Assembly (NCBI RefSeq): GCF_000485595.1
Contig: NW_014577682.1
Coordinates: 138,276-175,455 of the forward strand
Source of the DNA: Priapulus caudatus
Lineage: Eukaryota; Priapulida; Priapulimorpha; Priapulimorphida; Priapulidae
Direction: 5' to 3'
DNA length: 37,180 nucleotides
Shown here: one piece after another, positions 7,001-36,400 of the stretch
How the letters are laid out: every line of letters starts with the position of its first letter
Position numbering within the stretch: the first letter of the stretch is position 1
Translations under genes and position numbers: made by a program
The notes under the pieces: model-generated
Databases searched by the model: none
The model's input: only the letters and a program-made list of their open reading frames with translations
What the model was told of the DNA's origin: nothing

Positions 7001-9387
7001 GTTCGAACACGTATACCTGCAAATGTTTGTTATTATGTGATGTTTTAAAAAATCATTCTAAATTAGGAAACAGTTGATTCTTGTATGCAATTTATATACA
7101 GATATTCTACATTGTATGGTGCTGGTACCTACTTGATGTTGACTGATTACTAATGGAAGCTCATATTTCGAGAGTGAAACTGGTATACACAGTATTGATG
7201 CATTTATATTTTGCTTAGGCCCCATTGTTAGAAACAAAAAGTGGTGACATCATGATTCAAAGTTGTCATGAAAAAGTTGTGATATTTTCTAGAGTCGTAG
7301 GCATAACTATTTATGTTTCTGGTGATGGACCCCTGTTTTCTAACCCTTAAAGGGCCCAGGCTAGCAACAGATGAATATTTATATGATTGGCCATTTGTTG
7401 GCAGATGTGAACATGGTGTTCCAGCAGGTAGCACGGAACATCGTCATGGGCGATGACTCCTTCCTAGATGCCTTCTATCTCACAGTGCCTGCACCTGATA
7501 ACAAGCGTAAGCAGATAAGCGTAAGAAGCGCAATAATATTATGGACTAGCAGTTGACGGCACCTTGTGCAATGCATGAAAATGGTCACCAGTCAGTGTTT
7601 ATCCAAAATGGCAAGGGTTACAAGGTGACAATACACGTCTTGGTCCTCACGTGCCTGATGGCAGCACCTGTAGTGGCAGTTGTTATTGCATGTTGGGGGT
7701 GCCAATACATTAAGGTTCAATATATTGCTGTTCATTATTGTTTTTCACTGCTTAGGCCAGGACGATGCAGGTGGAACTGAGACTGGGTGGAGCAGGCTGG
7801 GCCTTGTCTATACAGTAGATTGGCCTCTACACATATTGTTTAGCAAACCTGTGCTAGACAAGTAAGTTTCTCCTTAAGGAATGAAGCTTGCCATTAAAAA
7901 TTTATGTTTGCCTACTCGTATAGTGAAGATAATATTTTATCTTGGATGAATTTCTAATGAATGAGAAGTTAGTAACTAATTCACAAACAGACATCACTTA
8001 AGCCTAGATAGTGGTTACTGGTTCTCGTTAACACTGCAGATACAACAAGGTATTTAAGTACCTGATGTCGGTGCAGAGAGCCCACATCAGCCTGAATAGC
8101 TGCTGGGCGATGCAGAAGCAACAGAAGCATCATAAGTGTCCTGGTATCCTAGCAACCGCATCATGGCAGATGCACAACCACATGTCTTTTCTGGTGAACA
8201 ATCTTCAGTATTATTTGATGGTGAGATTGATGTTATTCAGGTTAAGTATGTCTTCATTCTCCATAATTCTTTTACATTAAATTCCTACTGAAAAGTAAAC
8301 GTGGTTATGAAATGTGTTCTCATTGTTATTCGTGACTAATGTAGTGATCTTCCTATTTGCTTTTACCCTCAAGGTTGATGTTTTAGAAACACAGTTTGCA
8401 ACACTCGTTAGCAAGATTCAGTCGACGAAAGACTTTGAAGCCATCCGACTCGCTCATGACTCATTTCTCACCAGTATTCAAGCACAGTGCTTTCTGCTAC
8501 TAAAGCCAGTATGTGGTCAACTTTCAATGATCTAATTATAACTTCATTCCTGGCGTTACGATTGTTTCTTTGTTTAACAAGTCAAACAAAAATGAGAAAC
8601 GCTATCGGCACATAACTTTTATCAAACTAAACATGCTTTATGTATGTACATGGCTCGTCCTCTCTATGTGCGTTATATTGGTTATGATTCTGTTCTGTAG
8701 GTGTCCTACTGTATTGGTGAAATATTGAATCTCTGCCAATCATTCTGTACTCTGACTATGAGCAGTGCTGTCCCACCAACACAGAGAGAGCATGACCAGC
8801 TGAACAACATCTCACAGGTAAGAAACAGATCTTATATGTTTCTAGATGTACATGTTAGAAAAATCAGTGCATATACTCAACTGGTTAAATGTCACATTTT
8901 CAGCTGAGATTTAGTTTTGAAAATGAGTTGTGATATTCTGTTTAGCAAATATCTCAGAGCATTATAGGGGATTAGTACAAAATCTAACCTAACAGTGGTT
9001 ATAGGTCATTAGTTTAGTGATGAGAATTATTATAGTAAAATTTAATGTTATATTTTGCTAAGCAAATATATTATAACGTTATGAGTGATTGATTACAACT
9101 CACACGTGTGACCATGAAAAAATTGTAGTTATGCAATATCTAACAAAACAAATCATGCTTTAGTTAGTGTATGCATTATGCTTACAGTTCTACTCTAGTG
9201 GTGATTACATCATAGTTTATTCATTGTTTTTCTCCAATTTCAGGCATTTGGAAGGCAAACATCTCTATTGTTTAAGATCTTGTCACGTGTACGAAACCAT
9301 CAGTCCAGCCCACATCTAGCACAGTTTCTCATGAGAATTGACTTCAATAAATTTTTCACAGGCTCTGGTGGGCAGCTAGGAAGGTAA
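1019..9387 (+). CDS. TUBGCP4: TUBGCP4, gamma-tubulin complex component 4 (5' end outside window, one internal segment not found)
   Basis: GCP4 is a gamma-tubulin ring complex subunit that binds gamma-tubulin through its C-terminal GRIP2 domain and helps nucleate microtubules at centrosomes. Exons read from GT-AG borders and matching phases: 1019-1157, 1271-1434, 1740-1796, 2119-2198, 2361-2487 (weak donor), 4909-5017 (start uncertain; 4884 and 4739 also fit), 6401-6557, 7405-7506, 7756-7861, 8040-8220, 8374-8508, 8701-8817, 9244-9387. Landmarks recalled from vertebrate GCP4 include FLHPSE, SDPHLPVSHV, TAWVLHGIL, QQPEFSLADFE, MGRGELFHAFIDTA, DWPLHILF, FLVNNLQYYL, DFEAIRLAHD, and a final exon with RQTSLLFKIL ending GGQLGR-TAA. 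About the first 30 residues should lie upstream. The conserved block before the QQP exon (about 80-100 residues, containing an LPSYIPVRVAEKILF-like core) is not visible between 2488 and 4908, which is tandem repeat or poor sequence. Convergent with HAX1. Identity is firm; the 2361-5017 stretch is not. Confidence 0.93.
2698..3085. repeat. Tandem repeat, about 75-90-bp unit, five copies
   Basis: Each unit runs from CCCACAGACAGCACAGATCC through CTCTTCC...TCTAACAC to TGTTACCACGTAG. The two outermost units share an alternative GGATGTGTNCTATAGAGCA segment. It lies in TUBGCP4 sequence after the 2361-2487 exon, in the stretch where conserved coding sequence is missing. Confidence 0.85.
3086..3659. 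other. Unassigned stretch inside TUBGCP4
   Basis: No exon of the flanking gene, tRNA or recognisable repeat is visible. The base composition changes from AT-rich to GC-rich around 3455, just before the degenerate repeat that follows. Confidence 0.4.
3660..4425. repeat. Degenerate tandem repeat, about 65-75-bp unit, roughly ten copies
   Basis: The recurring core is GATCCCAGAGCGG, then GCACGCACGAGGACAGACGTAGGTTTG, then GTGGCGCCCTCTTCC. Copies differ by many single-base insertions and deletions at different places, which could be decay or uncorrected long-read error. It lies within the TUBGCP4 intron or gap. Confidence 0.8.
4511..4545. repeat. ACAG/GACA microsatellite
   Basis: Two short runs of the GACA tetranucleotide separated by TTTAT. 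Confidence 0.85.
5018..5934. other. TUBGCP4 intron, left part
   Basis: I see no exon, RNA gene or clear repeat between the 5017 donor and the short tandem array that starts near 5935. Confidence 0.5.
5935..6165. repeat. Short tandem array, about 45-bp unit, around five copies
   Basis: Each copy has GCAGTAATACNCNTACAA, then a C-run and CAGAAAACG. Copies decay toward the right (GCAGGAAGATTCGTACGATTCC). TUBGCP4 intron. Confidence 0.75.
6193..6357 (+). repeat. Dispersed repeat, copy 1
   Basis: It begins CCAGGGTAAAAAATACATGG, contains ACTCTTCAAACCTCCGAAATCGCTC and GAAAAAGAGCTCC, and ends near TTTTTCCCCTG. A second copy lies reverse-complemented at 21766-21921. It ends about 43 bp before the 6401 exon of TUBGCP4. 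Confidence 0.75.
6558..7404. other. TUBGCP4 intron
   Basis: AT-rich intron between the GRGELFHAFIDTA exon and the next one. No further feature seen. Confidence 0.5.
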
Positions 9388-15440: not shown

Positions 15441-18400
15441 ATGATGTCAAAAGATAATCGAGACTTTATAACGTTGTCTATTACTGGCGAGGATGCTGAC
15501 AAATATAAGACGAAGCAGTCCATCTGGCGGGTACTAAAAATATCATATTCATACTCATAGATACCGTAATCATAGCCCGACCAGGCTGTGCGACGGATTG
15601 TCTATACATTGGATATCTATTGTATATACATTGGATCCAGGCTGTGCGACGGATTGTCTCTACATAGGATTGTCTATACTATAGGGGTATTCTAACCCTA
15701 GCAATACCGTTTCTTGGAGCTACCGTAATCATAGATACAATAATGTAACCCAAACCCAAGAGGATAGGGTTACAAAGTGTCCCTATCCTTTTCTGCGGAG
15801 GAATGCCCGAGTAAATCACTCGGGCCGGTTTGCTGGTGCGTTTTCAGATACTAGAACTTCCAAACTGGGTTTATTCTAAACACGAACCTTGCTCCGCTAT
15901 CCGGGAACTTACAATGTATCGCAATACTCTGTATTAAACTAATATAACCTGTTACAAAAATTCGAAGTGACGAGCGGCGAATATACTGAGCGCCATTTCT
16001 GTTGACCTGTGACGTACGCATTTCCCAATGCGCATAGCGATCGGCAAACGCAGCGCCCTCCGATTGGTCGGTGAATCCACTCTTCAAACCGAAGTACGTC
16101 ACAGGTCAACAGAAATGGCGCTCAGTATATTCGCCGCTCGTCACTTCGAATTTTTGTAACAGGTTATATTAGTTTAATACAGAGTATTGCGATACATTGT
16201 AAGTTCCCGAATAGCGGAGAAAGGTTCGTGTTTAGAATAAACCCAGTTTGGAAGTTCTAGTATCTGAAAACGCACCAGCAAACCGGCCCGAGTGATTCAC
16301 TCGGGCATTCCTCCGCAGAAAAGAATAGGGACACTTTGTAACCCTATCCTCTTGGGTTTGGGTTACATTATTGTATCTACCGTAATCATAGCTCTAGTAA
16401 CTATAGTACCTGCGGGCCGCCTGCGGCAACTGTACGCGGGCTATAGTACTAGAGCTAAGATAATCATATTATCATATGAAATAGACCTAAGAGTAAGAGA
16501 GTAAGACTAAAGCTATGTCTCCACGCACGCGGCACGACACGACACGACATGCAAGCAAAACGCAGCGACGTTGTGCTGCCAAAAAAATTGTGATTTCGCG
16601 CATTGTGTTCATTCTGGTTCAGTGATCAGAAATTGTGCATGTGCTTGTTGTCCATTGCCATTGGCTGATGGTGGCGTGAGCAGAACAATCGCGTTGATTG
16701 GTTCAACTGTCTTTCACCGTACACTGCGTCTGCAGCCGGCAAAAGTCAAACTCATCTGACTTTCGCCGTCGCCATGAAACCGGGCTGGCGCCGTGCCGTG
16801 TCAGTGGAGACTGCGCTATAAGATATAATAGATTTGAACTTTGCCGGTAGGGGTGAACGACGCCGTTTCCCGCGCCGCGTGTGTGGAGACCGGCCTTAAG
16901 CCGGCTAGCTTGGTATTTGCCGTTCACAGAAATGCGGCTAAACAGAGGAATTGCTCCGACCTGTGATTGGAAGATAAAAATAGAATTCGTTACGTTTCTC
17001 AAGTCTGTCAATATATGACATGCATACAACTCGATTGATAACAAAAAACTTAGTCTAAGCTAAGTCAAAGACTACAAACACGGTAACCATCCCCTCCCAT
17101 TTGAGCTAATCAGAGGTTGAAGCAATTTCTATGTTTAGTGATGTTGCCAGTCAGCGGCTAAACTGTAAACAGTGGAATTGCTCGGAATACAGCACGAACT
17201 CTATTTGAACAAGAAACTCTTCGCGAAAGTTAGCAAATATTCGGAGAATCCTCTATAAAGAGTGTAAACGTTGTAATCTTTTGAAAATAAACTATCATGT
17301 AAATAGAGTCAGTGAGATATCTAATACTGACAGTCTTGAGAAACGTTACGAATTCTATTTTTATCTTCCAATCACAGGTCGGAGCAATTCCTCTGTTTAG
17401 CTGCATGCGTTCACAGGCTTGGACCTGCTGATATTGCTCTGTGGTATTATATGTATTTTCATACCGACTGTGCCAACCGGCTAGTTGTGAAGTACAGAAA
17501 TATTTAAGTTTTCTTCTATTGTATAAATGCATTCGGAGATTGGCAACCCGAGATCCGGAGCAGAGGTTCGCCAAAGTTAAACACTTACTTTACCATCAAA
17601 CTGGCTGCTGTCACAAAATAGATATTGCTGTGGGTGGTACGCACGCTGGGATGTCTCTGTGTCATTTGTCTGATAATACTCTCTATATTACTATTAGTTT
17701 CATAAGTTACAGTCATTGGTCATGACAACTATCTATCTACATCATGATTTGTCTTCATACTTAGTGAGTGGGTCTTCTTCATGTACGTTTCTATTCTATT
17801 TCAGGTGTGGAATCGGTTATCAAGGTTGCAAAAAAATGTATTATCTGTATTTCTAGTAGTTGTGCTGGTTACAGTTGCTGTCATCATACTTCACACAGGT
17901 ATTTTTTCATTAAAAAGTTATTGTTATCAATGTAAGTAGCTTCAGGATTTCTATTAATAACTGTAAACTGCTTTTGTAATTCAGTAATTTATTTTTTATA
18001 TCATAGCTGAGGAATGGTTTTTGTAAATATGCACCACTAAAAGTTAGATTTGTTTCATATGAAAAATCTTTTTTTTTCAAATGCAAGTTGAATAGAGATT
18101 TTGTCAACCATATGCCATCTCAATTTCATGGAATATATTGTAGCTAGCCTATCATTGTTTTAGAGTATTTTTAAAGTTTAGTTAATTGTGGGTGTGTTTC
18201 AATATAGGTTGCTTTCTCTACCCATCTTTGTAAATTGGGGTACTTTACTAACTACTACTTACTACTTACTACTTTAATTGTAACTTTACTAACTTTCCTT
18301 ATCAGGATTAACACCAGTATCGTGTTGGTCCTCTGGCAACCCTATCTGTCAAAATGTAAATGTGAATGATGAGCTTTAAATTTCATTCTATGCTTTGTGT

Positions 18401-19367: not shown

Positions 19368-22300
19368 AGAGATTGTATGCCGTGGAAATGTGCATGTGTT
19401 CTCATTTTCCCGTAAAATCTCATCTGAAGCTGTTTCACAGGCATAATAATGTTATATACAGATACGTCTAACACGCTGATGAGTTGTCATTTGGGATTTA
19501 TGTTTTGTAAATGTATTCTGAAATGTCTGTTGTGGTAATATATTCGTTCTTCTTGTTGTAATCGGTATGTAGGGTCCTGGGAAAAATAATAATCACATAT
19601 CGGCAGTAAGACCAAAAGATATCGAAGATATCCTTCATCACGATGATGGAATACCAATGGAATTCATGGGTGTGTTTGCCAAAATTGAACTGCAGCTTTT
19701 CACAAAATTGTGTTCTATCCTATTTTTTATAACAGTGTCCTCTGTGTGCAATGTAGTATATCTAAGGTCATTTTTCTTTGAGCGTTTGCTTTATAATCAT
19801 TTACTATTGAATTTGCAGAGGTTTCACTGAGGGTAATCGTTTCCGACTTCTGTGGAATTCAGGTGCGCAGAACGAACGACAGAAAGCTGTCACAGCGGCC
19901 TTCCAGCACGCGTGGACGGCATATAAGAAGTATGCATGGGGATATGACCAGCTGAAACCAGTTACAAGAAGCCACCATGAGTGGTTTGGTCTGGGCCTCA
20001 CCATCATTGATGCCCTGGATACAATGTACATTATGGATCTGAAAGAAGGTGAGTTTGATTCTTGCAAACTATTTAACAATAGCTTCACACATAGGTGGTA
20101 GCATGCGGTGGCTTCATCATATTGGAAGCTTACTAATACTATTTATTTGATTTGGAAATAATTACAGTGCTCAGTTAGTGTCCTGTAGTTGCTGTAGGAA
20201 GTGTGTAAACTTCACCATGTACTGGTCATCTCGCTGCACATTTTCTCATCCTATCTGATGATTACGAAGTGTATCCTTTACCCCGGGCATCGCCGTGTAG
20301 CCCAGCTAGTTAACTATAAGTCTATAACCAACATTGAAGTTTTATTTCCTTTACCATATGTTTTAGCTCTCAGGATCTCTTACAGTGCCATGCTACTATG
20401 TCTTTTTAGTAATATGTAGAGATGCATACTGTACTGGAAAAGTAGATAGTATTGTGTCATTACATGAGATGGCAAAGCACAGCAACTTTCATAGGAAGGT
20501 CTAGGGACAGGGTCCTCCTGAAAACTATTGAAAATAAACGATCAAGTGAGACATTATACAGTTATAGTCGGCTCTAGCAACACATTGCCAATTGAAATGC
20601 TGATGACTGAGGTTATACTGCGACATGTAGTGATGTCTATTTAATCGCGATGCGTGTGTGCTTCCGGCACATCTACGCCCCATGTTTTACCTATATGGCT
20701 GTGCAGAGTTCAAGGAGGGTCGTGACTGGGTGGAGCAGAAGCTGAATCTGTCACAGAACAAGGATGTCAACCTGTTTGAGGTGACGATACGCGTGCTCGG
20801 TGGACTGCTCAGCACCTACCACCTCTCGCAAGACCGAATGTTCCTCGATAGAGCCGTAAGTCGCTCGCCCCACATCTACGCGTATGCTCATAACAGAAAC
20901 GGAAGCAATAGGTCCACAGGAACCACGGCTCGTGCATGTGTCACTTTCGATCTCAGTTTGTGTCTTCTGTTCATTTTTACATTGGTACTTCATTTAACTC
21001 ATTCTGTGTTTATCTTGTTCATCATGGTTAAGCTTCAAGATAGCTGTTTTCTTAACCGATATCATCTACAATGTACGATATCATGCGTCCAATGTAACAT
21101 GACCATGCCTGCTAAAGCTTCAAGATGCCCTGTTTCCTCTATCCTTCTCCCCCGTGATCATATTCTGCACGACAATGCACGCGTGCGTTGACCACGTGTT
21201 GTCAAGCTCCGGCGTTGTTCTTGCAGAAAGAGCTGGGAGACAAGCTGATGCCGGCGTTCACGAGCGAGTCGGGAGTGCCGTTCTCGGACGTTAACCTCTA
21301 CTACCGGCAGGGAAAGCCGCCTAAGTGGGGTCCCGACAGCACTGTGTCAGAAGTCGCCACCATTCAGCTCGAGTTCCGTGACCTCAGTCGTGCTACTGGT
21401 GACCCCAAATACGAGGTCAGACTTCGGCGGGGCACTGAACACTATTTGCGCTCGTGTGAATGAATTTCGCCGCGTCGTCCTGCATGAGGGTCTCACACAA
21501 GGATTCGTGAATTTCTGCACGCAGTTAAATTGCATCGCAAACCCACCTGTTCCGACATTACTCACCATCCTGCACGTCTAGAATCCATTTACAATCATCA
21601 TCATCATGTGCGCGTCATTTCGGTCAATTTAACATCAACTCGTGTCTCGGAATAGTAATTGTAATAAGTACGAGCGGATTGCACTTAGAGGGCCATCGTC
21701 TATCTCGCGCTGCGTCGCGCATGTCGTACGCGATGTCTCTCTCACGCGGCGGTGCGTCTGCGCCAGGGGAATTTTTTTCACGGGAGCTCTTTTTCCATAA
21801 TCTGTGGGAAAATAGTTCTTGTCAAAAATTTTACGGGAGCTGTTTTGAGCCTCATGGGAGCGATTTCAGAGGTTTGAAGAGCGAATCGCTCATCGCTCCC
21901 GTGTATTTCTTACCCTGGTCTGCGGTGCAGGAAGCTGCCTGGGCGGTGTCGCAGAAGCTGCACAATACGCCCAAGTTCCTCGGCCTCGTGCCGATGTTCA
22001 TCAACGCGCAGACGGGTCAGTTCCGCAGTGCGACGACCTTGACCTTGGGAGCCCGAGCGGACAGCTACTACGAGTACCTGCTGAAACAGTGGCTGCAGAC
22101 GGGAAGGAAGATCGACTGGTACGTAGTACTGATGGCTGTTTGCCTCGAAGGTAGAAGGAGGGAAGTGCCGTGCGGGGTGACTGGAAAGGAGGTAGCCTGA
22201 TGTAGGTGTGCATGGAAAAAATTCGATCTAGAGATGGAATTCCATCTTTTTGGTAGCCCCAGAGGTCATTTTTGAGTGTAAATTCGTTAAGGAAGATTTG

Positions 22301-28300: not shown

Positions 28301-30875
28301 TCTTCGTTAAGGTAACGGTCGAGCAACGGCGGTGTCGCTAGAACGATCGTAGGGTTACTGGCTAGAGTTAGGGCTACGGTAGAAGCTAGCATTTAAACAG
28401 TTGCTAGAATGATCGTAGGGTTACGGCCTAGAGCTGGGGTACGGTAGAAGCTAGCCACAAGTTCCCTTCTCGCTTAACACTACGTTGGCGAGAGGTACGT
28501 CGTTTCCTACGACGTGTAACAGTCGGAGAGCCTGGTCGGGCTAGGTAGAAGCTAGCATTTAAACAGTGCTGCCAGTAAATAGATGTAGATAGAAAAGTAA
28601 ATAGAATTAAGCTGCCAAGCCGACGCCAGTAAATAGAATAGGTAATGGCCGAGCATCGGCGGTGTCGCTAGAAATGGGTTACAGCTCGTCAGTCCGAAGG
28701 GTCACTGGTCCGAAGGTTCACTAGTCTGGAGGCCCACTAGTCCAAAGGCTCACTAGTCCGAAGGGAAAACTAAACATTTTCACTGATTTTATTTAGCAAA
28801 TTGTGTGCTGATTGATGGCGCCACGTCATGGTTTGTAGCAGGAGAGTGGAGAGATAAATGTCATAAACATCATGCTGCAGATGGCCATGCAGATACACTG
28901 TCACATGGTTAGAACGCTGCTGTGTATTTTCAGAAAACTGAACAAATAAAATTTTCTAGAGCCAAAAATGTGCAAATTGTGTGAATTATGTTGTTTTATG
29001 GTGTACGAGGGGCGGTATTACGAGGCTAAATTACGTACAAATAGATACAAACGATCTGTACATTGGCATTTTTCTGACGATACCTGAGATTGGCAGTATT
29101 ACGAGGGGCGGTATAATGAGGTTTTACCGTAGTCTACAATTTTGCCACACATCCACACACCTCCCCCCCCCCCAAACACACCTCCCCCTACATCCCTCTA
29201 CTTCGGACTAGTGGACCTTCGGACTAGTGAACCTTCGGACTAGTGGGCCTTCGGACTAGTGGCCTTCGGACTAGCGGGCAGTCACCCACTTTGGTTTTCG
29301 GACTAGTGGGTCTTCGGACTAGGCCATCCTTAAAAAATTCTATGTTTGCTGTCCTCTGACCGACCCACAAAAATAGCCGCGACCCAAACGGTTTTTTTGA
29401 CATTTTGGGTTCCATTTTTTTTTTTTTTACATTCCTTATAGTTAAGGCTGAAACACAAAGCATGTGTGGCGAACATGAGGACAGACTTAAAATAACTATT
29501 ATGCCTCACAAAAAAGAGACCTACCTACCTACCCACTAAAAACATCATGGGTCGGGGGACAGCAAACGAATTTTTTAAGGATGGCCCTAGTGAACCTTCA
29601 GACTAGTGGGCCTTTGGATTAGCGGGCACTCACCGCTAGAATGATCGTGGGGTTTACGGCTAAACCTAGAGCTATGGTAAAAACTAGCATTTAAACAGTT
29701 GCTAGAATGACCGTAGCATTACGGCTAGAGTTATAGCTATGGTAGAAGCTAGCATTTAACCAGTGCTGCTAGTAAATAAAAGTACAGTATCTCGTCAGTA
29801 AATGGGTGAGGGGCAAACAGATGAGGAAAATTCGGAAAGAATGTGGAATATTTTTTCAAGGTCATCACTGATAGTTATTGTCAGCCTATCTAGAACAAAT
29901 ATAGGGTTACACCTAGAGCTATGGCTACGATAGAAGGTATCATTTTAATCATCATGCCAGTAAGCTAAGTCACGACAGGCAAACACTTTCTTTGTCATTG
30001 TGTTTTTACGTGCATAGGTATAATTCGTGTTTACACAGTCCAGCTTTTTCGTCATCTCTGCTAGCCGCGATGCTGAGGTTAAACATGTGGCAGGCATGGT
30101 AAAAATCTTTAAGGTGTTTGTGTGGCTGGAAGCTTCCTCCTTCTCCCTGTCCCTCTCCCTCTTCATCTCTTCCTCTAATCCTGTCAAGAATGCAGACAGC
30201 CAACACACGGAAATGATTATAATACTGATCTAAGGTTTCTCTCTCTCCTTCCCTCTCCCTCTCTCTCCCTCTTTCTCTTTCCCTCCCTCCCTCTCTCCCA
30301 CTCCCTCTCTATCTCCCCCTCTCTCTCCCTCGCTTTCCCCTTTTTTTCCTCCCTTTCTCACATTATCTTTCCCTCTCTCTCTCTCACCCCCTAATCTCTT
30401 CATCTCTCTCTCCGAATCTCTCTCCCCCCTCTCTCTCACTCTCTTCTTCTCCCTTTCCCTTTCCCAATCTCTCTCTCCCCTCCCCCTCTCTCACTCTCCC
30501 TTTCTCTCTCCCAATCTCTCTCATTCTCTCGTTCTCTCTCAGACTGCCGACGCTCACAACCTGCTGAGGCCGGAGACGATCGAGTCGCTCTACATTCTCT
30601 ACCAGCTCACCGGTGCGCGCAAGTACCAGGACATGGGCTGGCGCATCTTCACGGCGTTCGAGAAGCACGCGCGGCTCGACGGTCAGGGCTACACGTCGCT
30701 CAGCAACGTGAAGAACGCCGACCAGCCCGGCTGGCGCGACTCGATGGAGTCGTTCTTCCTCGGCGAGACGCTCAAGTACTTCTACCTGCTCTTCGACGAC
30801 AACCCGCGCCTCGTCGACCTGCGCACGTGGGTGTTCAACACCGAGGCGCACCCGCTGCCGCTCGTCGGCTCCTGA
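15441..30875 (+). CDS. MAN1B1: MAN1B1, ER class I alpha-1,2-mannosidase (GH47), complete 653-residue model
   Basis: This type II membrane enzyme trims the terminal alpha-1,2-mannose from Man9GlcNAc2 in the ER/Golgi and marks misfolded glycoproteins for degradation. Twelve exons join in phase: 15441-15530, 17805-17898, 18512-18612, 18927-19136, 19573-19669, 19863-20048, 20707-20855, 21227-21415, 21931-22118, 22754-22877, 28111-28311, 30543-30875. The cytosolic RDFITLSI segment and the SRLQKN motif before a single transmembrane helix (about 42-59) match vertebrate MAN1B1. A stem of about 135 residues precedes the GH47 domain (about 198-650). Family catalytic positions are present: Asp in ADSYYEYL (about D416), Glu in LRPET (about E554) and the Ca2+-binding Thr in FNTEAHPLP (about T643). 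The conserved disulphide pair appears as DHLVC (C481) and ELMHTC (C512). Human MAN1B1 is 699 residues; the difference is in the stem. The acceptor at 22753 is weak but keeps frame. Confidence 0.95.
15576..15666. repeat. Direct repeat pair, about 57-bp spacing
   Basis: CCAGGCTGTGCGACGGATTG occurs twice, each time followed by TCTNTACAT. The pair lies just after MAN1B1 exon 1. Confidence 0.8.
15720..16391. mobile_element. Foldback transposon-like element with 283-bp arms
   Basis: Arms 15735-16017 and 16094-16376 are equal in length and near-identical reverse complements (only a handful of substitutions seen, e.g. within CCGAGTAAATCACTCGG), around a 76-bp loop. Ends read ATACAATAATGTAACCC and its complement. 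The direct repeat CTACCGTAATCATAG flanks both sides (15720-15734, 16377-16391), and 14 of its bases recur at 15562-15575. There is no transposase-like frame, so it would be non-autonomous. MAN1B1 intron 1. Confidence 0.85.
16390..16457. repeat. Hairpin with GC-rich loop
   Basis: AGCTCTAGTAACTATAGTAC pairs with CTATAGTACTAGAGCT (one extra A on the left) around a GC-rich loop containing GCGGGCCGCCTGCGG. It abuts the right flank of the large foldback element. Confidence 0.7.
16512..16820. mobile_element. Probable MITE with GTCTCCAC-type imperfect inverted ends
   Basis: The left end reads GCTATGTCTCCACGCACGCGGC. The right end read backwards gives TATAGCGCAGTCTCCACTGACACGG. A related inverted end (GCCGCGTGTGTGGAGACC) lies just beyond at about 16875-16892. 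Ends are imperfect and the target site is not clear. MAN1B1 intron 1. Confidence 0.5.
16921..17412. repeat. Large inverted repeat, arms of about 95 bp
   Basis: 16921-17017 (GGCTAAACAGAGGAATTGCT...AATCACAGGTC complement) and 17318-17412 are near-identical reverse complements. A third, degenerate copy of the GGCTAAAC...GGAATTGCTC part lies between them near 17156-17190. MAN1B1 intron 1. Confidence 0.8.
17899..18511. other. MAN1B1 intron 2
   Basis: AT-rich, with a short TACTACTTACT microsatellite near 18252-18278. No other feature seen. Confidence 0.5.
19226..19362. repeat. Compound (TA)n-(GA)n microsatellite
   Basis: A TA run to about 19290 is followed by a GA run to about 19362, in MAN1B1 intron 4. 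Both strands show artificial open frames of Tyr/Ile and Arg/Glu or Ser/Leu. Confidence 0.95.
20282..20309 (+). mobile_element. Degenerate Helitron 3' terminus
   Basis: CCCGGGCATCGCCGTG, then TAGCCCAG and CTAG before a T, closely resembles the 3' end of the Helitron at 35621-35647. The terminal hairpin is partly decayed. I did not find a matching 5' TC end. MAN1B1 intron 6. Confidence 0.5.
21766..21921 (-). repeat. Dispersed repeat, copy 2
   Basis: Reverse complement of the 6193-6357 family (CCAGGGTAAGAAATACACGG, GCTCTTCAAACCTCTGAAATCGCTCC, GGAAAAAGAGCTCC). It ends 9 bp before MAN1B1 exon 9 (21931), so the repeat supplies the TTTCTTACCC pyrimidine stretch of that exon's acceptor. Confidence 0.75.
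22119..22753. other. MAN1B1 intron 9
   Basis: No gene or clear repeat seen. Confidence 0.5.
22878..23117. repeat. 72-bp satellite, left part, starting at a splice donor
   Basis: Units start at 22879, 22951, 23023 and 23095, exactly 72 bp apart, with the core GGATAGGTCCATGAATNGTT, then GAATGCATGATAACCT. The first unit begins at the GT of MAN1B1 intron 10. The array resumes at 26856 after the inserted transposon. Confidence 0.9.
23735..23975. repeat. GTGCCTGCGCGCGTGC minisatellite
   Basis: Tandem GTGTGCCTGCGNGCGTGCTTGC units. Overlapping Cys/Ala/Arg and Thr/His open frames on both strands are artefacts of the repeat. Confidence 0.9.
24730..25820. repeat. Noisy ACGCACGCACGTGTACGTGCAC satellite, about 1.1 kb
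   Basis: Units of about 20-28 bp combine ACGCACGCACG with the palindrome GTGTACGTGCAC. Copies differ by frequent single-base indels. Many long His/Thr/Arg or Cys/Val/Arg frames on both strands follow from the repeat. Confidence 0.85.
26856..27030. repeat. 72-bp satellite, right part
   Basis: Continuation of the 22878-23117 array after the inserted transposon (GATAGGTNCAT, CGTTTAGAA, ATTGCATNGTCCA). The last copies are degenerate. Confidence 0.85.
27376..27568. repeat. 63-bp tandem repeat, about three copies
   Basis: GTTAAGACGTAATACATGTATTATGTGCATGTATTAACATGCAAAACATGC-type units, rich in small palindromes (TAATACATGTATTA, GCATGTATTAACATGC). Followed by CT-rich (27590-27660) and AT-rich (27660-27725) low-complexity runs. 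MAN1B1 intron 10. Confidence 0.85.
28688..29633. mobile_element. Element with inverted ACTAGTCCGAAGG subterminal arrays
   Basis: 28688-28763 holds repeats of CACTAGTCCGAAGG. 29201-29320 and 29587-29630 hold the inverse CCTTCGGACTAGTG. Between them is unique AT-rich sequence with two ACGAGGGGCGGTAT copies (29007, 29100). The geometry suggests a DNA transposon with long satellite-like ends inserted in the surrounding array. Exact ends are not defined. Confidence 0.5.
29322..29586. mobile_element. 265-bp MITE, GGCCATCC ends, 3-bp CTA duplication
   Basis: GGCCATCCTTAAAAAATTC opens the element and its inverse closes it, with further pairing (TTTGCTGTCC, CGACCCA). CTA lies on both sides (29319-29321, 29587-29589). 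Removing the element plus one CTA restores the surrounding ACTAGTGAACC repeat unit. A GG-initial end with a 3-bp duplication fits the PIF/Harbinger group. MAN1B1 intron 11. Confidence 0.75.
30232..30542 (+). repeat. Long CT-rich tract leading into MAN1B1 exon 12
   Basis: About 310 nt of almost pure TCTC/CCCTC ends at the CTCAG acceptor of exon 12, an extreme polypyrimidine tract. The minus-strand Arg/Glu-rich frame across it is an artefact. Confidence 0.9.
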
Positions 30876-33403: not shown

Positions 33404-36400
33404 ATGAGCGCGTTTGAAGACTACCACCAAGTCTGCAATTACTATGACGAATTCAGGTACGAATTGTGTAATGATACAGATAGCATGACTAATTAAAAAG
33501 AAGACGTGTTAAGTATTCGCGGACGCATAAAAAAATTTTCCAGACGAGACGGCGGCGAGAATCGCAGCTGTGCTTGTCGACAATTATAAATAAGTTATGT
33601 ACGAGCGTCATACGTATCCAACATACGTATAAAACGTATCCGTAAACGTGTTTTCCTCCTGTGTGCGGCGTGCTCATACTTTGCGTTGTGTGGTATTGTC
33701 ATGCATTGCGTTGCGCACATGTTGTTACGACGCGTTGCGTTACTCTACGTTGCGCTATGGTACGACGCGTTGTGTTGCGTTACGCTACGTTGCATCGTGT
33801 TACGACGCGTTGTGTTGCGTTACGCTACGTTGCGTCATGTTACGACGCGTTGCGTTGCGTTACGCTACGCTGCGCTATGTTACGACGCGCTGCGCTATGA
33901 TACGACGCGTTGCGTTGCGTTGCGCACATGTTGTTACGACGTGTAACGTTGCATTACGCTACGTTGCGCCATGTTACGACACGTTGCGTTACGTGGCAGC
34001 TGGCGAGATGGGATGCAGCGGCGCTCTCTATTGTGTCAGCAATACTGGGTGAGGGCGTGCGCGGGACATTTTTAGCTCACCTTGACATCGTCAAGCTGAG
34101 CTAATGCCATGGGTCGTCGTCCGTCGTACGTCCGTGCGTGCGTCCGTCCGCCCGTCCGTCAACATTTTGCTACGGTCAACAATAACTCAGGAACCGTTTG
34201 ACCCACATGTTTGAAATTGGGTATAGTTGTTACTGCTATGCTCCCATATTAAACGTCCTATTTTGGAGCACGCCAGTCGACGTACTTTCGAGCCACGGCA
34301 ATTTTTTGCCAAAAATGGGAATTGCCATTAGTCAGTTGAGGCTCAGCGGATTTTGCTCATTTTTGGTATGTGAATGAATAAGGGCTAGGGGTTTTGATAT
34401 TAAAAAAAAAAATAATGCAAATTATGTAGGGTTTGGCAATTATATAGCATATTATATAGATACGCAGATAACAAACAGTCTGTGGTGTCACACTCGTCTG
34501 GTTCGTTTTACAAGATTTCATTGACAATATCTTTAATGCAAAATTCCTGCTATGAACATTATGATTTATACTATTATTATTATATTATTATTATTATGAT
34601 ATAATGATTTATGCTAAGAAACATCAAAGCGGGTATAGCGCCATCTACCGTCACAAATTGTGATTCATTTTGGTTTATAAATCTATATATAAAGTTGTTC
34701 AGCCGAATTTGTGTGTTCGCGCATAACTAGAGAACTCCGCAGCCTAGAGGAAAACTAAATATATTTTTAGAATCAGCACGTCAAAAAAGTTAAAAATTTA
34801 TAAGTTAAAAAGTTAAAAATTTATAAAAATTCTATTCATCAATAGATGGCGTACAGATTAACATTATACATCACATACGTGTGAATCCATTGTGTATCAC
34901 CATAACGTCCCAGTAGCCAAATGGATAAGGCATCGGACTCCTAAACCATTGATTTTCCGTTCGATTCCGACCTGGGGAAATTCTTTGTTTCTTTACTTTT
35001 GGACTGTTTATAAGTACTTCTGCCGTATTAACCGTTAATTTCAAAATTTTAATTTTTTTACCACATTTAAACGTTTATTAAAAATCTAGAATAAACTATG
35101 GTAGATGATAATGATAGCGCAAACTGACGGGAACACTTCACAGAAGCCTATGTAGCTTACTTGCTTCTCGAACGCCGTGAAGATGCGCCAGCCCATGTCC
35201 TGGTACTATATAATTTCATTTTATTATTTATAATTTTTGACTTTTTTATTTTAATGACATCTTTTCATTTTTTATTATTTTTTACTGTTGGGATGGGATG
35301 GCATGCGATGGGATGGGATGGCATGGCATGGCATGGGATAGGATGGGATGGCATGGCATGGCCTGGGATGCGATGAGATGGCATGCGATGGGATGGGATG
35401 GCATGGCATGGCCTGGGATGCGATGAGATGGCATGCGATGGGATGGGATGGCATGGCATGGCCTGGGATGCGATGAGATGGCATGCGATGGGATGGGATG
35501 GCATGGAATGCGATGGATGGATGCATGCATGGATGGATGCATGGATAGATAGATGGTTCGATTTTTTGGGTATTTTCCTTTCAACCAAGCGGTCACCAAC
35601 TGAGTAACGCCACTGATTTCCCCGGGCAACGCCGGGTATCCCGCTAGTTATTTATAATTTATATATGTTATTATTTATTATTTTTACATAAAAAATTACA
35701 CATAATTATCAAGAGTATATAATGGGAGTTCTCCCATATATACTCTTCGTTTCTATAATGTACGTCGATGGTTGCTGAATTAAAACTGACTTCTTCTCAC
35801 TCACTCATTTGTGTCCTTTTTTGTGGTGAGCTACAGTGTCATTGACACTTTCATTATGTTTAGCTTCGTGCGTTGAGTATCACACGTGCGAAATCCATCC
35901 GCAACACCGCCGCAACACAGCCGTAAAGCCTAGCGCAGACATGCGATTTTTGGTTGCTCGTCGCTGCAACCTAGCTGTAACTGCATGGTGCGGTTGGCTG
36001 CCACTGAACTTGGCGCATATCTATCTAGATCAATTTACCTAGACCTACCTACGTACTGATATAATTGTCGGTCAATATATAATAGTATTTTCATTAAAAA
36101 AAACAGACGACCCACGCCATATCGCCTGTGCTGGCCGCACCAGAAAACCCCGGTTACTAACCGTAATTGTAACGCACGTACGCACGCACAGACACACATG
36201 CGCACACACGCGCGCGCTTGCGCGCACGCATAAGCGTATCGCATTTACTCGTGTAAATGTTGAACCCCAAGTATTGCCAAAATTAGTATGAAAAAATATA
36301 CATGAAATATGTATTGGTATTGAATATTTGTGTCACGTTGGGTAGTAGTTGATCAAACAAGTCGTTATATTGCAACACATTTATTGACAAAAGTAAATTA

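Follow-up and report, generated by a model that had tools for sequence, protein, structure and literature searches.

How did a short piece of a host exon come to lie inside a Helitron only a few kilobases from the gene that still contains it? An earlier note on this DNA, a stretch of 37,180 nucleotides from Priapulus caudatus (C622:138276-175455, hereafter called the window; assembly of 385 Mb, 2952 contigs), read the locus as a Helitron that had captured a fragment of a nearby MAN1B1 exon. The positions of the features concerned are collected in Table 1, where the 46-bp copy is called the patch.

Table 1 Positions, strands and particulars of the features discussed (numbering of the window)
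Feature	Position	Strand	Remarks
MAN1B1 last coding exon	30543..30875	+	start by eye from CAG acceptor; stop 30873-30875
Donor segment in MAN1B1 last coding exon	30622..30667	+	single copy
Repeat hosting the Helitron, left part	34067..34681		outer limit approximate
Non-autonomous canonical Helitron copy (A/TC...CTAG/T)	34682..35647	+	966 bp
Degenerate tRNA-like segment in Helitron	34907..34979	+	RF00005 26.8 bits, cut-off 29
Patch, perfect antisense copy of MAN1B1 last-exon segment	35162..35207	-	46 bp, of which 44 bp surely donor-derived
TGGGA/TGGCA minisatellite of Helitron	35289..35546	+	
Helitron 3' hairpin, CCCGG GCAACG CCGGG	35621..35636	+	11 nt then to element end: TATCCCGCTAG
Repeat hosting the Helitron, right part	35648..35857		outer limit approximate

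The 5' TC, the terminal hairpin and the 3' CTAG that had been described for the element were all found at 34682-35647. The 5' end at 34682 reads TCTATATATAAAG behind an A, and the 3' end at 35647 is CTAG followed by T, with TATCCCG between it and the hairpin. As in canonical Helitrons, which are mobilised by a RepHel protein and have TC and CTRR ends, the 3' end is preceded by a hairpin, which here has a 5-bp stem, a 6-nt loop and its foot 11 nt from the element end. The tRNA-like segment resembles tRNA-Arg with anticodon CCT in our reading and is ancestral in the family, other copies having it too; in 5 of 20 loci searched it was listed, with scores short of the Rfam threshold. A second Helitron-type 3' end, CCCCGGGCATCGCCGTGTAGCCCAGCTAG followed by T, lies at 20277-20309, just after a MAN1B1 exon (85 % identity over 33 nt).

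Of the repeat into which the Helitron inserted, the first ~208 bp of the right part match at least 39 other places at 93-98 % (40 of 1437 candidates scored). When the flanks of the Helitron were joined, they aligned across the junction in all 16 host-repeat relatives that were fetched, and in every one of these the sequence was uninterrupted at the Helitron site, 14 reading TTTATAAA directly followed by TTATTTATAA and two having one base changed. Further left the alignment was poor in four of the 16 (L066, L077, L079, L080). The empty site in 16 of 16 relatives places the insertion exactly between A and T, as had been claimed, and without target duplication, which again agrees with a canonical Helitron. 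The host repeat was thus there first and the Helitron came second.

The Helitron has at least 62 matches in its own genome (40 of 1319 candidates scored), and 40 loci were fetched from the assembly as a sample of the family. With a pattern that itself contains CTAG, 29 3' ends of the family were located, and T followed in all 29; in viral contigs a 3'-end pattern gave no matches. Among 33 rows read by eye at the 5' side, TC stood behind A in 11-12 copies, the remaining starts being TC behind another base, directly behind the CTAG end of another element, or otherwise. L004, L019, L023, L029, L031, L032, L064 and others begin right after another element's CTAG and so form head-to-tail composites, with GGTATTAGTCTGCTAG joined to TATATATAAAG as an example of such a junction. 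For 31 of the 40 loci the sequence was long enough for divergence from the majority consensus to be determined; it was 2.3-18.5 %, and 4.7 % (29/615) in the window copy. The closest relative of the window copy in the sample had 93.0 % identity and the tightest pair of any copies 96.6 %, so that nothing in the sample points to a recent burst.

The patch is the exact reverse complement of its donor segment at a distance of 4494 nt (blastn E 4e-19 within the window), which confirms the error-free antisense copy, with a source about 4.5 kb upstream, of the earlier note. The attribution of the source to a nearby MAN1B1 exon was likewise borne out: the product of the donor gene belongs to GH47 (Pfam E 3e-46), among solved structures it is closest to human ER mannosidase I, which is MAN1B1 (PDB, 142 bits compared with 82 for Golgi mannosidase IA), and the exon is the last coding one. 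The only matches of this exon in the assembly are the donor segment itself and the patch. The exon thus keeps the donor and the Helitron has one further copy, as in a filler or templated insertion, where the donor is copied and not moved. The 46-mer occurs at exactly two places in the 385 Mb at up to 3 mismatches, the donor and the acceptor (control 0), and only one of the 40 fetched Helitron loci carries it, with up to 8 errors allowed. Carriage of the 46 bp by all family copies, an outcome that the earlier note had named as contrary to its own reading, is rejected by these counts.

The state of the site before the patch can be read from the other copies. A search of the assembly with the family sequence that runs unbroken through this spot gave 35 matches (up to 3 mismatches allowed; control 0), and the unfilled site is the ancestral state of the family. 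Both anchors flanking the spot were found at usable spacing in 26 of the 40 Helitron loci, and in 24 of these 14-22 bp lie between them, most commonly ATATCAAATATTATTATATTTT. In L030 (C705; L063:3268-3609) the 22 bp are accompanied by a 342-bp insert, located in the same A+T-rich stretch that is missing from the window copy. In the window copy the anchors enclose 45 bp, made up of one T at 35161 that matches neither parent and 44 donor bases. As these 45 bp stand in place of 22 A+T-rich bp of family sequence, the event was a replacement and not a simple interruption. The last two bases of the patch, CT at 35206-35207, are common to donor and Helitron, so that the right junction has a 2-bp microhomology running into the element; the left junction has the extra T and is without microhomology. 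Recipient bases were thus lost and the junctions have microhomology on one side and an added nucleotide on the other, as in filler-type insertions. The TACT direct repeats around the insert were considered as a target duplication, which is ruled out by the ancestral site, since that shares CT only. The hairpin predicted at the spot (DNA fold -5.2, compared with -3.5 ± 1.6 in 200 simple shuffles) is not clearly stronger than in the shuffles, and the case for a break-prone spot is weak.

We consider it probable that the patch is a filler copied from a template, either in break repair or by template switching, that the exon in cis served as this template, and that the copying probably took place in situ after the Helitron had inserted. 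The lost bases, the donor still in place, the 2-bp microhomology and the extra base together have the anatomy of templated filling. On this account, a canonical non-autonomous Helitron inserted into a repeat that already lay downstream of MAN1B1, as the empty sites show. Later, replication or repair would have failed in its A+T-rich stretch, with loss of 22 bp, and 44-46 bp of the last MAN1B1 exon, 4.5 kb off on the same contig, would have been copied into the gap in the opposite orientation. Copying may have proceeded by template switching or by synthesis-dependent end joining (we infer both this choice and the polymerase), and the resulting patch would be a passive scar that needs no Helitron machinery.

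Fillers of this kind are known in Helitrons. In insect Helitrons, internal fillers with end junctions of 2-13 bp were taken as support for the filler DNA model, and double-strand break repair was given as their explanation (PMC6544945). The insect Hel1 cases resemble the present one in having a short internal host sequence in a non-autonomous Helitron, a known source locus and short end junctions; they differ in that their extra regions are described from amplified exemplars, whereas here a single copy has an inverted donor in cis, and the 22 bp lost here are known from 35 intact sites (PMC6544945). Patches of similar make have also been described in human genomes (PMC5110952; PMC8421209). Templated insertions of the MMBIR type, which are known as germline variants, share the inverted orientation relative to a nearby template and the microhomology at the junction, but in that study templates were searched within 100 bp, whereas here the donor is 4.5 kb away and microhomology is confined to one of the two junctions (PMC8421209).

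True gene capture, in which the fragment was taken up during transposition of a nearby source copy that then made a local hop, is an unlikely alternative. Helitrons are known to carry gene fragments, according to the cited account (PMC6544945), and a 44-bp insertion common to L006 (C542) and L064 (C2265) suggests that the family can propagate internal inserts. That 44-bp insertion lies before the tRNA-like part and consists partly of repeats of ATAACGGACCA; C2265 was at first taken as a host donor of the L006 44-mer and was dropped, the site there being another Helitron copy. Against capture, the 46 bp are found at no further place in the assembly, and a local hop together with loss of the source copy would be required. 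The position of the patch also argues against it. Capture by end bypass, which takes up DNA beyond the original 3' end, predicts a fragment at that end; the patch occupies positions 481-526 of 966, it replaces 22 bp of the interior and the Helitron has kept the 3' end of its family, so end bypass does not fit. Of the earlier reading, what stands is that a piece of a nearby host exon sits in the Helitron, but a capture linked to transposition is unsupported, since the patch is private to this copy, replaces interior sequence, has a single-copy donor in cis and has junctions of the repair type.

Less likely still is an RNA-templated patch, in which a reverse-transcribed piece of MAN1B1 mRNA repaired the break, the origin that has been suggested for human templated sequence insertions of class 2. 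The donor is exonic, and RNA-derived patches with microhomology and non-templated nucleotides have been described (PMC5110952). The class 2 insertions share with the present patch a short copied sequence, microhomology, an extra nucleotide and lost recipient bases, but they are human polymorphisms with distant donors and are held to be RNA-derived, whereas here the donor is 4.5 kb off (PMC5110952). The 46 bp contain no exon-exon junction by which an RNA template could be recognised. A donor in cis at this distance follows readily from copying of DNA, whereas with an RNA that can diffuse it would be fortuitous. An assembly error is very improbable: the Helitron is close to the end of contig C622 (~1.5 kb) and N-filled gaps are found beside some other Helitron copies, but the patch is cleanly joined on both sides, stands in place of lost sequence and has microhomology, whereas a mis-join would be more likely to give one junction.

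The perfect identity of patch and donor had been taken to suggest recent acquisition or constraint. In the host repeat copy 18 of 810 positions depart from the consensus (2.2 %), including some at the very ends, and this sets an upper limit on the residence time of the Helitron. At such a divergence 46 bp should have gathered no more than about one change, so that a count of none is nothing out of the ordinary. The perfect identity therefore implies neither constraint nor a very recent date, and constraint is not needed to explain it. For a patch dating back over the whole divergence of the Helitron (4.7 %), the probability of no change in 46 bp would be 0.11, so dating alone leaves the order of patch and insertion unsettled. 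The chance of a random donor falling within ~4.6 kb on either side is ~2e-5 by our own arithmetic, which favours an event after insertion. It is thus from the location of the donor in cis, and not from dating, that we infer the patch to be later than the Helitron insertion.

Local donors are not the rule among the other inserts of the family. For six other non-satellite inserts of at least 17 bp (L003, L006, L017, L018, L021, L030), no donor outside the element was found within ~4.3-4.5 kb, the flanks being shorter for L018 (only 0.6 kb on one side) and L030 (2.6-2.8 kb), and the idea that these too were local patches was abandoned. Satellite-like inserts, a 14-bp one in L009 and those in L022 and L040 lay outside this comparison. 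For the 26-mer of L018 no donor was found at up to 1 mismatch. In L017 a 56-bp filler lies in the Helitron minisatellite (C260:235589-235644); with up to 3 mismatches allowed it matches just one further site, C146:341923-341978 on a different scaffold (3 mismatches), which has no other likeness to the Helitron. Together with the patch, this shows that the family has more than one instance of a filler and that neither an exon nor proximity is required.

The background of local repeats was assessed in 239 kb from 22 regions, with low-complexity and high-copy words excluded. Besides a Helitron end in L050, the 46-bp pair was the only inverted perfect match of at least 26 bp at more than 2 kb. Direct matches at more than 2 kb were found in L049 (30 bp), L050 (a run at 9.2 kb), L060 (two of 27 bp) and L062 (33 bp). 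The window also contains an inverted repeat, 15732-16017 and 16094-16379 (286 bp with a 76-nt spacer; the perfect runs are shorter when some words are excluded), which from its structure would be a fold-back or MITE-like element of young age. L045 has an end related to it, TAGATACAATAATGTAACCCAA, at 9232.

As a 46-bp antisense match to MAN1B1 in cis, the patch could in principle give an RNA duplex that feeds silencing or editing and regulates the gene, though we regard this as highly improbable. It would require transcripts past 35207 or a transcribed Helitron, and the polyadenylation-like signals found upstream of the patch from 32580 on make read-through to it less likely.

The way in which Helitrons take up pieces of host DNA has yet to be settled, according to the cited account of the insect elements (PMC6544945). 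A search of the literature found no Helitron with a local inverted exon piece, which is no proof that none is in print. The present locus gives the states before and after at base resolution: the ancestral site is known from 35 places, as are the donor, the acceptor and the lost bases, and no sign was seen of the patch having been propagated. The case supports the idea that some 'captured' fragments begin as ordinary repair scars in resident elements, and that only later jumps would make such scars look like capture.
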